Shown here piece after piece: positions 15,388 to 21,848 of a DNA stretch of 64,000 nt. This DNA is from an uncultured Bacteroidota bacterium. Lineage in GTDB: Bacteria > Bacteroidota > Bacteroidia > Flavobacteriales > Flavobacteriaceae. Location of the stretch: positions 179,716-243,715 of the forward strand of contig CACCLB010000001.1 of the NCBI GenBank assembly GCA_902546725.1, given 5' to 3'. The notes under the pieces were generated by a model, which was not told the DNA's origin, searched no databases, and was given only the letters and a program-made list of their open reading frames with translations. Every line of letters starts with the position of its first letter. Position 1 is the stretch's first letter. A program made the translations under genes and the position numbers.

Positions 15388-16152
15388 TTACGCTCTAATG
15401 GATTTTATAAAGTCTGGAATACGCGCTACACCCTCCTGTTCTAAAAACTTGATAAAGGCAGATCCGATGATGGCACCTTGGGACTCTCGTGTGGCTGCAT
15501 TATAAGTGTCCGCATTGCTGATTCCAAAACCAACGACTGTGGGCGTTTGAAGACCCATTTTTTGAATGCGTTGAAAGTAATCGGTTTGGGTACTTCCAAA
15601 GGTGTTTTTTGCACCGGTCACACTCGCACTACTCACCATATAGATGAATCCGTTGGAAACCTCGTCGATGTAGCGTATGCGTTCCTCGGGAGTCTGAGGG
15701 GTAATCAAAAACATATTGTACAGACCGTGTTGATCAAAGAGTACTTTGTACTCTTCGTGATACACATCAACGGGCAGATCGGGAATGATCAAACCATCGA
15801 TACCAACCGCTTCACAACGCTGGCAGAATTTTTCAATTCCAAACTGCATCATTGGATTGAAATAGCCCATTAAGATCAAAGGGATGTCGATCTGTTTTCT
15901 TATGTTTTTTAATTGTTCAAAGAGCTTTTCGGTATTCATACCGTTGCGCAGGGCTTGGGTTGAACTTTCTTGTATGGTGGGTCCGTCGGCTAAAGGGTCA
16001 GAAAAAGGCAAGCCAATTTCAACCATGTCAACGCCAGAGGCTTGTAGTTGTTTGAGTATGGGGACAGTATCCTCTAATTCAGGGTGTCCTGCAGAAAAAT
16101 AGATGGACAATAGTTTTGTGTCCTCCTTAAATTTTTGATCAATGCGATTCAT
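15388..16152 (-). CDS. trpA: Tryptophan synthase alpha chain
   Basis: LSIYFSAGHPELEDTVPIL, VDMVEIGLPFSDPLADGPTIQ, VGFGISNADT. Confidence 0.96.
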   Translation of the reverse strand: MNRIDQKFKEDTKLLSIYFSAGHPELEDTVPILKQLQASGVDMVEIGLPFSDPLADGPTIQESSTQALRNGMNTEKLFEQLKNIRKQIDIPLILMGYFNPMMQFGIEKFCQRCEAVGIDGLIIPDLPVDVYHEEYKVLFDQHGLYNMFLITPQTPEERIRYIDEVSNGFIYMVSSASVTGAKNTFGSTQTDYFQRIQKMGLQTPTVVGFGISNADTYNAATRESQGAIIGSAFIKFLEQEGVARIPDFIKSIRA

Positions 16153-17333
16153 TACAGCTTAAAATAATCGATATAGGTATCCAAGTCTTTGTCTCCACGA
16201 CCTGAACAGTTAAACACAATAATCTCCTCAGGGCCAAATTTGCGCACATCAAGTGCTGCAAAAGCATGAGCGGTTTCTATAGCGGGAATAATACCTTCCA
16301 TCTGTGAAAGGGTTAAGCCCCAGTCCATGGCTTCCTGATCGGGTATGGAAATGAATTCGGCGCGCTGTGAACGGAATAAATGCGCATGCATGGGTCCTAC
16401 CCCAGGATAGTCCAATCCCGCAGAGATGGAATAAGGTTCAGTTATTTGTCCGTCAGGAGTTTGCATCAAAAGGGTTTTGCTGCCGTGAATGATGCCTTCC
16501 TTGCCCAAGGCAGAAGTGGCAGCACTCTCTCCAGAATCGATTCCTTTACCAGCAGCTTCTACGGCTATGATATTGACCCGTTCATCGTTGAGGTAGTGGT
16601 AATACAAACCCGCTGCATTGCTTCCGCCACCCACACAGGCGATGACGTGGTCTGGATAGTCGCGTCCCTCAGCTTCTTGCAATTGCCATTTGGTCTCTTC
16701 ACTGATCACGGCTTGAAAGCGCGCAACCATATCGGGATAGGGATGTGGCCCAACTACAGAACCAATGATATAATGTGTATTCACAGGATTGTTGATCCAA
16801 TCTCTTATGGCTTCATTGGTTGCATCTTTTAAGGTTTTACTTCCTGATTGGGCAGGGCGTACTTCAGCACCCAACATTTTCATACGGGCTACATTGGGAG
16901 CCTGACGCTTGATGTCTAATTCTCCCATATAAACGATACATTCTATACCCATCAAGGCACAAACAGTGGCAGTGGCTACCCCGTGTTGGCCAGCTCCAGT
17001 TTCAGCGATGATGCGTTTTTTCCCCAAACGCTGAGCCAAGAGGATTTGACCAATAGTATTGTTGACCTTATGGGCTCCTGTATGGCAAAGATCCTCTCTT
17101 TTGAGGTAGATCTTGGTGCCGTATCTTTCAGATAATCGCTTGGCAAAGTACAGGGGAGTGGGTCGACCCACATAGACTTTGAGCAATTCGTCAAATTCTT
17201 TTTGAAAATCGGGATCAGCAGTGATGCTGAGGTAGTTTTGTCTTAATTCTTCTACATTGGGATAGAGCATTTCAGGGATAAAGGCTCCGCCAAAATCTCC
17301 GTAATATCCTTTTTCATCTACATTATAGTTCAT
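16152..17333 (-). CDS. trpB: Tryptophan synthase beta chain
   Basis: [55 protein letters not shown]. Confidence 0.97.
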
Positions 17334-17940
17334 CTAATTGTTGTTTAAATGGTGTTAACAGCTCAATATTTTTCAATCCTGGAGAACGCTCAAATTTACT
17401 ATTTACATCAATAGCAAAAAGGGGTAATGGCGTTTTTATTAACTCCTTGATTTTTTTGAGTTCATCAGGGCCGATTCCTCCGCTTAAAAAGAAGGGTTTT
17501 TTAGAGGGATAGGCCTTCAGTAAGGTCCAATCAAAGCCGTAGCCGTTTCCGCCAGGCAGTGCCCCTTTGGTGTCGAATAAAAAATAGTCACAACAAGCCT
17601 CATAGGGGGTGAGTAGGTCAAAATCAAATTGACCCTTTATCGAGAAAGCTTTGATGACTTCTACTCCAAACTCCTTGACCAGCTCGCAATAAGCAGGTGT
17701 TTCCGCTCCGTGAAGCTGGACGGCTTTCAATTGATGCTCGGCTATAGTCGACTGTATATAATCAGCTGTGGCATCTACAAAGACCCCGGTTTTTTTAATC
17801 GCTGCTGGAAGTTTGGGAGTGGGTTGATCGACATAGCGACTGGAAGGCGCCCAAAAGATAAAGCCCATATAGTCGGGTTGTAAAGCCGCTAAAGCCTCAA
17901 TATTTACTATTTCCCGCATGCCGCAAACTTTAAGTCTCAT
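17323..17940 (-). CDS. trpF: Phosphoribosylanthranilate isomerase
   Basis: [58 protein letters not shown]. Confidence 0.94.
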
Positions 17941-18722
17941 TTTTCCAATTGATTTATAAATTTACGAGCTGCTGCTCCAGGGTCTTCGGTCTTCATAAAG
18001 TTTTCTCCAACTAAAAAGCCCTGATAACCATAAGCTTGCAATTCTTGAATGGCAGCTACCTCAGAAATTCCGCTTTCGGAAACTTTGACAAATTCATCAG
18101 GGATTAAGGGTGCCAAAGATCGACTAATGTCTAATGAAACTTCAAAGGTTTTGAGATTGCGGTTGTTGACACCTAGCAGATCCAAAGTGGGCATTAAAGA
18201 TTTTTCCAATTCTTCTTGATTGTGGACTTCCAATAATACTTCTAAGTCCAGTTGTTGGGCAGCAGTTGAAAGTTGTTGAATCTCTGCTCTACTCAATACA
18301 GCAGCAATCAGTAAAATCAAGTCCGCACCATAGGCTTTTGCTTCGATGAGTTGGTATTCATCCACGATAAATTCTTTTCTCAAAAGCGGAAATTCAGTCA
18401 CTGCTCTCGCCAGATTGAGATCGTCCAACGAGCCTCCAAAATACTTTCCGTCTGTAAGTACAGACATCCCACATACCCCAGCGGCTTCATAGCCTTGAGC
18501 TACTGTACTGACGGAAAGACTGCTGTTGATGTTTTGTTTTGAGGGTGAGCGTCTTTTGTGTTCAGCGATGATCCCAGAAGTGCTGTTTCGGAGTCGCTCA
18601 CTCAGTGAGTTTGCCTTGCGGTCGAACAGGGGTGAGGCTTCCCAGTAGGAAGTTGGGAACAGTGTTTTTCTTTGGGCTACTTCAATTTTTTTATCTGCAA
18701 GGATGCGGTCTAAAATGCTCAT
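17937..18722 (-). CDS. trpC: Indole-3-glycerol-phosphate synthase
   Basis: IIAEHKRRSPSKQNIN, MSVLTDGKYFGGSLDDL, LLRKEFIVDEYQL, LGVNNRNLKTFEV, VSESGIS. Confidence 0.96.
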   Translation of the reverse strand: MSILDRILADKKIEVAQRKTLFPTSYWEASPLFDRKANSLSERLRNSTSGIIAEHKRRSPSKQNINSSLSVSTVAQGYEAAGVCGMSVLTDGKYFGGSLDDLNLARAVTEFPLLRKEFIVDEYQLIEAKAYGADLILLIAAVLSRAEIQQLSTAAQQLDLEVLLEVHNQEELEKSLMPTLDLLGVNNRNLKTFEVSLDISRSLAPLIPDEFVKVSESGISEVAAIQELQAYGYQGFLVGENFMKTEDPGAAARKFINQLEK

Positions 18723-19714
18723 GATTGACTCAGTTTTTGAAGGGTTTTAAATGCTTTTAGGGCTTCTCCAGATTCCAACGAAGCTTTGGCCTCTTCAAAG
18801 CCCTCAATGGGAGAAAGATCTTTTGCTGTTGCGATGGCCATGCCCGCATTTGCACAAACCACATTGTGCTGCTCTTGGCTTCCTTTATTGTTTAAAATAG
18901 CTGTAAATATAGCAGCGGATGAATCGACAGTTTCTCCGCCAGCAATGGTTGAAGCTTGATGCGCTAATACTCCAAAGTCTTGTGGGGTCAAGACGCGCTC
19001 TCCTTTATTACTAAACGCTTTTGTAGCACCTGTAAGCGAGATTTCATCATAACCGTCTAAGGCGTAAAGTACCGTAAAACGACTGGCTGTTTTTTGAAAG
19101 AGGTAGTAATAAAGTCGTGCTAATTCTAAATTGAATACTCCTGTTAATTGATACTTGGGAAAAGCCGGATTGACTAAGGGTCCTAGCATATTAAAAAACG
19201 TCTTTAACCCTAGTTCTCTGCGCACGGGAGCAACATTTTTCATGGCCGGGTGGAAGAGCGGAGCGTGTAAAATACAGATCCCGGCTTCATCCATGCAGCG
19301 TTTTAAAAAGTCAGTCTCGTTTGAAAAGCGAATGTCTAAAGCTTCAAGTACATTACTTGAGCCACAGCCTGAAGAGACCCCATAGTTGCCGTGCTTGGTT
19401 ACTTTTACTCCTGCTCCTGCCGTGACAAAAGCTGAAAGGGTAGAGATGTTAAAAGTGTTTTTTTCGTCTCCGCCAGTTCCGCATAAATCAATGGCTTCAA
19501 ATTCGCTGAGGTCAACTGCTATACAGAGTTCTAATAAAGCAGAACGGAAGCCTTCCAGTTCTTCTAAACTAATACTGCGCACCATAAATACGGTTAAAAA
19601 TGCTGCAATTTGTGAAGGGTTGTATTTCCCGTCTGCAATATTGATGATGACTTGACGAGCCTGTTCACTCGTCAATTGCTCATGCTGAATAAGTTGATTG
19701 AGAATTGCTTTCAT
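18719..19714 (-). CDS. trpD: Anthranilate phosphoribosyltransferase
   Basis: DLCGTGGDEKNTFNIST, VTKHGNYGVSSGCGSSNVLE, FNMLGPLVNPA. Confidence 0.96.
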   Translation of the reverse strand: MKAILNQLIQHEQLTSEQARQVIINIADGKYNPSQIAAFLTVFMVRSISLEELEGFRSALLELCIAVDLSEFEAIDLCGTGGDEKNTFNISTLSAFVTAGAGVKVTKHGNYGVSSGCGSSNVLEALDIRFSNETDFLKRCMDEAGICILHAPLFHPAMKNVAPVRRELGLKTFFNMLGPLVNPAFPKYQLTGVFNLELARLYYYLFQKTASRFTVLYALDGYDEISLTGATKAFSNKGERVLTPQDFGVLAHQASTIAGGETVDSSAAIFTAILNNKGSQEQHNVVCANAGMAIATAKDLSPIEGFEEAKASLESGEALKAFKTLQKLSQS

Positions 19715-20280
19715 ATACTGCTGTTGATCCAGTTGGCTAATATGGTTTTACCGTGGGGTGTCAATACCGATTCGGGATGGTATTGTACCGCACGTACATC
19801 GTAAGTTTTATGTCTTAAGGACATCAACTGTCCTTGGTCGTCCACTGAGGTTGCTTCTAAACTTTCGGGCAAGGGGCTAGCAACCACCCAGGAATGGTAA
19901 CGCCCTACTTCAAAACTTTGAGGGAGTCCTTTAAAAAGAAGGTCCTCTTCAGTAATCCTTACAGGGGTAGCAATACCGTGATAGACTTTGTCAAGGTTGA
20001 TCAGCGAGCCACCAAAAACCTCACCAATAGCTTGCTGCCCAAGGCAGATTCCCAATATTTTTTTGGTGGGTGCATAGCGCTCTATGGCAGCCTTGAGTAG
20101 GCCCGACTCGTCCGGAATTCCAGGACCGGGAGAGAGTAGGATGAAAGGATAGGCTTCCAATTCATCTAATTCAAATTGGTCGTTGCGCTTTACCGTGACC
20201 TCACAATCCAGTTCTTCCAAATAATGAACAAGATTGTAGGTAAACGAATCGTAATTATCGATAACAAATACTTTTTTCAT
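19711..20280 (-). CDS. trpG: Anthranilate synthase component II (glutamine amidotransferase)
   Basis: VIDNYDSFTYNLVHYL, LSPGPGIPDESG, LGICLGQQAIGEVFGG, QYHPESVLT. Confidence 0.96.
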   Translation of the reverse strand: MKKVFVIDNYDSFTYNLVHYLEELDCEVTVKRNDQFELDELEAYPFILLSPGPGIPDESGLLKAAIERYAPTKKILGICLGQQAIGEVFGGSLINLDKVYHGIATPVRITEEDLLFKGLPQSFEVGRYHSWVVASPLPESLEATSVDDQGQLMSLRHKTYDVRAVQYHPESVLTPHGKTILANWINSSI

Positions 20281-20285
20281 TTGTT

Positions 20286-21686
20286 TTATACTTTTTCTGC
20301 AAGGCTTAAAGCCTTGTCTAAGGCACCTAATTTATTATACACTTCTTGAAGCTCATTTTCTGGAACAGAGTCTGCTACAATTCCAGCTCCAGCCTGATAG
20401 TGTAATTGGTTGTGTTGACTTAAAAAAGAACGAATGATGATGGCATGGTTAAAATTTCCGTCAAAATCGAGGTAACCAATGGCTCCCCCATAAAAGTTTC
20501 GTTTGGTTTTTTCATAGCGATCAATGAGTTGGAGTGCTTTGTGCTTGGGAGCACCACTCAGTGTTCCAGCAGGGAAAGTATCAGCGACTACTCTAAATGT
20601 CTTAGCTGCTGCTTTCATCTTACAACTCACCTTAGAAACAAGGTGAATCACATGAGAGTAAAATTGAATCTCCCTGTTTTTTTCGACCACCACCTCTGAA
20701 CCGTTTCGACTTAAATCATTTCGAGCCAAATCAACCAGCATCACATGCTCGCTGTTTTCTTTTGGATCTTTGGAGAGTTCCAAAGCAGCGGCGGCATCTT
20801 CTTCGTCATTTCCCGTTCGTTTAAAAGTCCCTGCTATCGGGTGAATTTCCGCTTTTCCATCTTGAACGACAAGTTGCGCCTCGGGTGAACTGCCAAATAT
20901 TTTAAAATCTCCATAATCAAAATAGAAGAGGTAGGGCGATGGGTTGATGGAGCGAAGGGTGCGATATACATTAAAATCGTCTCCTTGAAAACTTTGGCTG
21001 AACCTACGCGACAAAACCAATTGAAAGACATCACCGCGAAAACAGTGTTGCTTGCCTTGCTCTACATATTCTAAAAATTCAGCATCCGTCAGGTTCGAAC
21101 TTTTCTCCCCCTTTTTTTCAAAGCTAAATTTACTTTGCTGTTTGCCGTTGATCAGTTGTTCCAGTTGCTCTAAATTGTGTTGACCGTCGCTACTGTGAGA
21201 AAACAAATGGGCCTCGTGATTGAACAAGCTAATAGCAATGATGTTCTGATACACTGCATAGTAGATGTCTGGAATGTCTTGCCCTTGCTTCTTCTTATTC
21301 AACTCAATTTGCTCAAAATACGCTACCGCATCGTGGGCGATATACCCAAAAATACCGTTGCTGATGAACTTAAAAGGATAGTTTTTAGTTTTGAGTTGTC
21401 GTGAAAAGCTGTGAATCTTTTCTGGGATATCTGTGTCTGGGTTTAGTTCCAGTTCTTCTGAACTACCGTCTGGATAATGGGTAGTCAGCTTGCCGTTTTT
21501 GAGTGCAATGCTCGCAATTGGATTGCAGCAGATGTAGGAAAAGTCGTTGTTGTTGGCATGGTAATCACTACTTTCCAATAAAAGGCTGTGTGGAAATACA
21601 TCTCTTATTTTTAAATATACGCTTACGGGAGTAAGGGTATCTGCCAGTATTTTTTTATGTTCTGATTGAAGGGTAAAAGACTTCAT
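20286..21686 (-). CDS. trpE: Anthranilate synthase component I
   Basis: DVFQLVLSRRFSQSF, NPSPYLFYFDYGDFKIFGSSPE, PIAGTFKRTG, LVDLARNDL, FPAGTLSGAPKHKA, YGGAIGYLDF. Confidence 0.96.
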   Translation of the reverse strand: MKSFTLQSEHKKILADTLTPVSVYLKIRDVFPHSLLLESSDYHANNNDFSYICCNPIASIALKNGKLTTHYPDGSSEELELNPDTDIPEKIHSFSRQLKTKNYPFKFISNGIFGYIAHDAVAYFEQIELNKKKQGQDIPDIYYAVYQNIIAISLFNHEAHLFSHSSDGQHNLEQLEQLINGKQQSKFSFEKKGEKSSNLTDAEFLEYVEQGKQHCFRGDVFQLVLSRRFSQSFQGDDFNVYRTLRSINPSPYLFYFDYGDFKIFGSSPEAQLVVQDGKAEIHPIAGTFKRTGNDEEDAAAALELSKDPKENSEHVMLVDLARNDLSRNGSEVVVEKNREIQFYSHVIHLVSKVSCKMKAAAKTFRVVADTFPAGTLSGAPKHKALQLIDRYEKTKRNFYGGAIGYLDFDGNFNHAIIIRSFLSQHNQLHYQAGAGIVADSVPENELQEVYNKLGALDKALSLAEKV

Positions 21687-21696
21687 TTTAGGTCAA

Positions 21697-21727
21697 TTAA
21701 AAAAGGCCTGTCGTGATGACAAGCCTT
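21697..21727 (-). terminator. Intrinsic terminator upstream of trpE (candidate trp attenuator)
   Basis: Minus strand AAGGCTTGTC-ATCAC-GACAGGCCTTTTTTAATT: 10-bp stem with one G.T wobble, 5-nt loop, T6 tract, about 10 nt before trpE start. Confidence 0.85.
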
Positions 21728-21756
21728 GAATTTATATGCGGTTTGGTTTCACGATT

Positions 21757-21810
21757 TCACTGCTGAAATGTGTTCCACCATTCGTTTAAAAAAATTATTG
21801 TTCGATTCAT
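21757..21810 (-). CDS. trp operon leader peptide MNRTIIFLNEWWNTFQQ with tandem Trp codons
   Basis: Minus strand ATG AAT CGA ACA ATA ATT TTT TTA AAC GAA TGG TGG AAC ACA TTT CAG CAG TGA; consecutive TGG TGG followed by the terminator hairpin before trpE. Confidence 0.85.
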   Translation of the reverse strand: MNRTIIFLNEWWNTFQQ

Positions 21811-21815
21811 TAAAT

Positions 21816-21848
21816 CAAATATAGTACAAATAGTTTATTAACCCCAAA
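21816..21848 (-). promoter_or_regulatory. Bacteroidetes-type promoter for trp leader (-33 TTTG, -7 TATATTTG)
   Basis: Minus strand TTTG (21848-21845), 21-nt spacer, TATATTTG (21823-21816) matching TAnnTTTG. Confidence 0.55.

Follow-up and report, generated by a model that had tools for sequence, protein, structure and literature searches.

The question raised by this locus was whether the short region ahead of trpEGDCFBA in a 64,000-nucleotide stretch of flavobacterial DNA (the whole of which is referred to here as the window) senses tryptophan, and, if so, through which RNA segments. The window was placed among marine Flavobacteriaceae, near MAG TMED48 (TrpE identity 95%) and Candidatus Arcticimaribacter. 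A leader RNA found before trp genes in this phylum, Bacteroid-trp (RF01692), was described in 2010 by Weinberg et al. (PMC2864571), and two papers on Flavobacterium psychrophilum (PMC9723704, PMC6414381) report that operons for amino acids show strong clues of control by leader peptide attenuation, and note Bacteroid-trp ahead of the trp operon. This is a different species of the same bacterial family, and the main-text passages on its attenuators give no pairing partners. As Bacteroidetes trp attenuators are already known, both from Rfam (RF01692) and from flavobacterial papers, finding such an element in a genome of Bacteroidetes type is no novelty, contrary to the emphasis of the initial annotation. 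A literature search of freely available papers yielded nothing specific on a Bacteroidetes antiterminator and no account of how Bacteroidetes trp attenuators work.

Organization of the trp leader

The element, as read from the sequence, occupies positions 21810-21699 of the minus strand (Table 1). The short leader ORF with TGG TGG, the hairpin and the terminator that had been annotated ahead of trpE were all present on that strand, which the annotation had left unstated, and the operon order trpE-G-D-C-F-B-A was likewise correct. Two dimensions required revision. The hairpin ATTTCA-GCAG-TGAAAT exists, extended by 3 bp around a bulged C to give CAC(ATTTCA)...(TGAAAT)C GTG, and the terminator (stem 21727-21703, 10 bp with a loop of 5 nt, followed by the T-run) lies before the trpE ATG at 21686 with a distance of 12 nt from the T-run to trpE, instead of the 10 nt first given. 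TIGR00564 was the best match for trpE (E 4.7e-127), falling under that model's strict cut-off; the identity of trpB was confirmed by TIGR00263, and trpG, trpD, trpC, trpF and trpA were named from their translations.

Given the position of the promoter box, the predicted transcript start lies about 1 nt 5' of the leader ATG. Of 103 leaders, 100 have a TAnnTTTG box no more than 60 nt 5' of the ATG, the commonest gap being 5 nt; in flavobacteria this box spans -12 to -5 according to one study (PMC9723704). Trp leader transcripts look near-leaderless, since in 39 of 100 leaders only 4-8 nt separate the -7 box from the ATG; leaderless mRNAs are put at about 5.5% in F. psychrophilum by the same study (PMC9723704).

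Two further features were observed at the 5' side of the element. A possible CDGSH-type ORF of 27 codons, MKINRPKCGCGNTQNPNGYCDGSHAKN and a stop codon, lies directly 5' of it on the same (minus) strand at 21949-21866; its small size kept it out of the ORF list. In addition, a 12-bp inverted repeat, AATTATTGTTCG / CGAACAATAATT (21864-21853 and 21804-21793), flanks the trp promoter and the leader ATG. The repeat measures 12-13 bp in the close relatives L003, L216 and L223, and in L217-L219 part of it persists in altered sequence; its own pairing exceeded permuted pairing within the clade and did not clearly do so elsewhere. A speculative role is to insulate the operon, as only RNA reading through from upstream could have its leader translation blocked by the repeat.

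Table 1. Features of the trp leader region in the window and of lysine-codon leaders in other genomes
Feature	Position	Strand	Basis or remarks
Promoter, Bacteroidetes sigma-A type	21816..21848	minus	Sequence; predicted start near 21811
Promoter parts: TTTG; spacer of 21 nt; TATATTTG	21848-21845; 21823-21816	minus	
Leader peptide ORF MNRTIIFLNEWWNTFQQ (stop), 17 codons, near-leaderless	21757..21810	minus	Translation
Regulatory Trp codons TGG TGG	21775..21780	minus	
Hairpin ATTTCA-GCAG-TGAAAT across the leader stop codon	21769-21754	minus	
Segment 1 (protector strand) CACATTTCA	21764..21772	minus	Pairs with 21759-21750
Segment 2 (antiterminator strand) TCGTGA	21749..21754	minus	Complements segment 3; covariation
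Segment 3 TCACGA	21711..21716	minus	Four terminator loop bases and first two of 3' arm
Intrinsic terminator AAGGCTTGTC-ATCAC-GACAGGCCTT and T-run	21699..21727	minus	-14.4 kcal/mol
trpE, anthranilate synthase component I	20286..21686	minus	Profile match and operon context
trpG, trpD, trpC, trpF, trpB, trpA, overlapping or adjacent	15388..20280	minus	ORF translations
Lys leader KKDKK (L112, L184)	G022:C56:17666-19060		Aspartokinase, then lysA
Lys leader QKDKK (L146)	G090:C258		Before aspartokinase gene
Lys leader KKGKK (L185)	G645:C76		Before aspartokinase gene

Conservation of the leader

Of the 151 genomes of the family, 150 gave a TrpE match, the weakest matches being paralogues, and 105 trpE upstream regions were compared over 450 nt. 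Conservation of a WW leader before trpE in relatives, a check proposed in the initial annotation, was borne out, since an ATG-started ORF containing WW was found in 102 of these regions (only 2 of these loci contained a further WW ORF, judged spurious, within the 450 nt). Of the three exceptions, one is cut by the contig end and still shows TGGTGGTGG, one apparently starts with TTG, and the third is L107, a small genome in which no leader was found upstream of trpE. Across the 105 leaders the Trp-Trp pair is almost always retained, whereas the remaining residues drift.

The pattern CGTGA-N18-48-terminator occurred in 103 of the 151 family genomes, once per genome, against no match to a reversed control pattern in the same 151 genomes; none of the other families sampled from the order contained it. 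Farther afield in the class, members of other families carry a WWW or WW leader ahead of trpE, trpD or trpB (genes named from translations). In G054, a WWW leader lies upstream of a TrpB-like gene. An orphan WWW leader with a terminator and no trp gene downstream was also seen at G056:C1, around 130780-130900 (L113, L147). Neither a TrpB match nor a clear TrpE match was obtained in this genome, and the orphan leader is probably a relic.

Mutually exclusive pairings

In the window, segment 1, which follows immediately on the Trp codons, pairs with TGAAATCGTG (21759-21750) around a bulged C at -5.5 kcal/mol, and across 34 representatives the leaders' own 1:2 pairing gave z -8.6 against permuted partners, with 0 of 20000 permutations as good; the permutation tests of pairing treat leaders regardless of relatedness. 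In the window, segment 2 starts 20 nt beyond the last Trp codon, and its first paired base lies 15-22 nt past that codon in 102 of 104 leaders, a placement just outside the reach of a ribosome stalled on the Trp codons.

Pairing of segment 2 with its own terminator apex averaged -9.8 kcal/mol versus -4.5 kcal/mol for shuffled regions. Among 13 diverged leaders, the own 2:3 pairing beat all 20000 permutations, relatedness again being disregarded, and the result was the same when segment 2 was sought in a fixed interval 12-32 nt after the Trp codons. The partners change together, as in L099 (GGATTCAG:CTGAATCC), L069 (GTCGCAAT:ATTGCGAC), L092 (GCGATGAT:GTCATCGC), L108 (ACCGGAT:ATCCGGT) and L106 (GCGAG:CTCGC). 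When 32 sequences were simply aligned, 94.3% of cells conformed to the six 2:3 pairs, with both-side changes in two pairs, and the terminator of 32 relatives is paired in 99.4% of cells, with both-side changes in 5 of 10 pairs. Segment 3 extends into the 3' arm in most leader types. Weak 2:3 pairing was also encountered: that of L082 reaches -4.2, those of L098, L095 and L109 are no better than with many foreign loops, and in L223 just half of segment 2 remains.

The mutual exclusion of antiterminator and terminator was modelled on the window leader by nested folding, which cannot judge a pseudoknot. With a ribosome on the Trp codons, the probability of 2:3 pairing was 0.90-1.0 while the RNA was exposed to 21711-21707; with RNA to 21707 and either no ribosome or a ribosome at the stop codon, that of the terminator was 0.98-1.00. 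The choice between the two structures would thus be set by ribosome position, in keeping with the mutually exclusive folds for which the initial annotation had proposed a check. Once fully exposed, the terminator (-14.4 kcal/mol) is thermodynamically much stronger than 2:3 (-6.4 kcal/mol), and antitermination must therefore be kinetic.

Relationship to Bacteroid-trp and to other leaders

Searched with RF01692 (gathering cut-off 49 bits), the window leader gave no match at gathering, nor at E 10 within a 361-nt stretch. The close relatives of the window score 32-37 bits, and the cut-off was passed in 37 of 61 family genomes, the matches listed lying mostly just upstream of trpE. A covariance model built from 32 family leaders with the window's own clade excluded (R1) found the element at 56.2 bits (E 1.5e-8), the next match in the genome having an E-value of 0.05, so that this was its single clear match there. 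Run class-wide, R1 gave many chance matches near E 0.001-0.01 at gene ends with terminators, and only WW-leader matches were counted. Together, the R1 match and the RF01692 miss identify the window element as a diverged homologue below the Rfam cut-off. Homology is also indicated by the shared position, leader and terminator arm GGCTTGTC, in addition to detection by the independent family model. Like RF01692, the element lies upstream of Bacteroidetes trp genes and has a leader with Trp codons, and relatives reach 75 bits at the same place. The Rfam structure differs in being one long hairpin without the terminator 3' arm and the antiterminator, its model ending in GGCUUGUC, the terminator 5' arm, and hence mid-terminator (as aligned in L033 and L034). 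Extending RF01692 through the 3' arm should help with missed diverged members.

Several other matches were rejected. The only RF01692 match of the window's genome (E 3.7) lies away from the trp operon and was regarded as chance; L115, a further RF01692 match, is a gene end without a Trp leader; and isrJ, Phe_leader and MicC, obtained at lax Rfam thresholds, were below gathering and carried mainly by the terminator.

The Rfam Trp_leader family had no match in the window leader. The element nevertheless resembles its prototype, E. coli trpL, in its tandem Trp codons, protector 1:2, antiterminator 2:3, terminator and predicted control by ribosome position. The comparison with enterobacteria made at the outset thus holds for the general plan and not in exact layout, because segment 3 consists of the terminator loop and upper 3' arm, whereas the E. 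coli antiterminator uses the 5' arm. Unlike the enterobacterial attenuator, moreover, the window transcript appears nearly leaderless and lacks a Shine-Dalgarno sequence. Read by eye, the distant class members L159, L164 and L180 seem to use the terminator 5' arm. The general hallmarks of trp attenuators are present in the sequence as a tandem-codon ORF and an intrinsic terminator between leader and first gene, and folding adds a mutually exclusive protector and antiterminator, the latter of which would be freed by a codon-stalled ribosome.

Lysine-codon leaders before aspartokinase genes

Three genomes from two genera, G022, G090 and G645, carry a lysine form of the same switch ahead of a gene for aspartokinase (Table 1). 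Lys codons occupy the sensing position in place of WWW, the leader start is apparently TTG or GTG, segment 2 starts 16-17 nt past the last Lys codon, and both 1:2 and 2:3 are intact. The tail of the leader is nearly identical to that of trp leaders, matching L065 at 24 of 28 bases. Neither G022 nor G090 has a clear TrpE; G090 and G645 retain a trpB. With the same switch carrying Lys codons before aspartokinase, the sensor appears to be swappable.

Alternative explanations

In the same attenuator, segment 2 could instead meet the terminator loop in a pseudoknot that helps or times termination rather than preventing it. Because most of segment 3 is loop sequence, 2:3 pairing might leave the lower stem of the terminator in place, and the far greater thermodynamic stability of the complete terminator would fit such an arrangement. 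Segment 2, however, would be covered by the ribosome in well-fed cells and sequestered by segment 1 when the leader is untranslated, leaving it free only under stalling, which is precisely when a biosynthetic operon should be on. This, together with the entry of segment 3 into the 3' arm in most leader types, makes the pseudoknot reading unlikely.

It was also considered that the terminator might be constitutive and the short ORF serve only to couple or re-initiate trpE translation, with no sensing of tryptophan, given that a leader ORF a short way ahead of a gene is a common arrangement in Bacteroidetes and, through reinitiation, can increase translation (PMC4833913). The leader stop codon is some 70 nt from trpE, which argues against reinitiation, and mere coupling would explain neither the near-universal Trp-Trp in 105 leaders with drifting neighbors, nor the turn to Lys codons where the downstream gene encodes aspartokinase, nor the fixed spacing between codons and segment 2, so that this explanation is highly improbable. 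The conservation centred on the codons and their spacing also speaks against a protein- or tRNA-binding leader in which the ORF is incidental. TRAP-like or T-box-like control of trp genes does occur in other phyla, but no T-box or other Rfam match above cut-off was found in the window leader, and sensing of this kind is scarcely credible here.

Discussion

Conserved Trp codons, their spacing, a protector hairpin, an antiterminator and a terminator, with compensatory changes, all point to the ribosome-mediated attenuation that the initial annotation had suggested, and the element is very probably a transcription attenuator of the Bacteroid-trp (RF01692) kind that senses tryptophan. Legible in the compared leaders are the elements, how they are spaced, and pairings that exclude one another and co-evolve; leader translation, stalling, termination and the response to tryptophan are what we infer from them. 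RNA polymerase would initiate about 1 nt ahead of the leader start codon, with a ribosome following at once. When Trp-tRNA is ample, the ribosome would reach the stop codon and mask segment 2, the terminator would form, and transcription would stop before trpE; the same outcome is predicted for an untranslated leader, in which segment 2 would be tied up by segment 1. Under a shortage of Trp-tRNA, the ribosome would stall on TGG TGG and mask segment 1, and the freed segment 2 would pair with the loop and 3'-arm start (segment 3) of the emerging terminator, delaying or blocking it so that trpEGDCFBA could be transcribed. With two Trp codons, the window leader may respond less steeply than leaders with three.

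What is new is the likely mechanism in detail, with RNA segments named from more than 100 relatives. The covariation singles out the pairing partners (segments 1, 2 and 3) and a constant distance from codons to switch, which could be tested by a few mutations, and the truncated Rfam model was seen to miss diverged copies such as the window element. A lysine version of a ribosome-mediated attenuator would, if true, be unusual. On balance, these comparisons favor the view that Bacteroidetes use a compact, re-targetable kinetic attenuator, in which the antiterminator would capture the apex of the emerging terminator and a codon swap at one fixed position, from Trp to Lys with the RNA switch retained, would move the attenuator to another operon.
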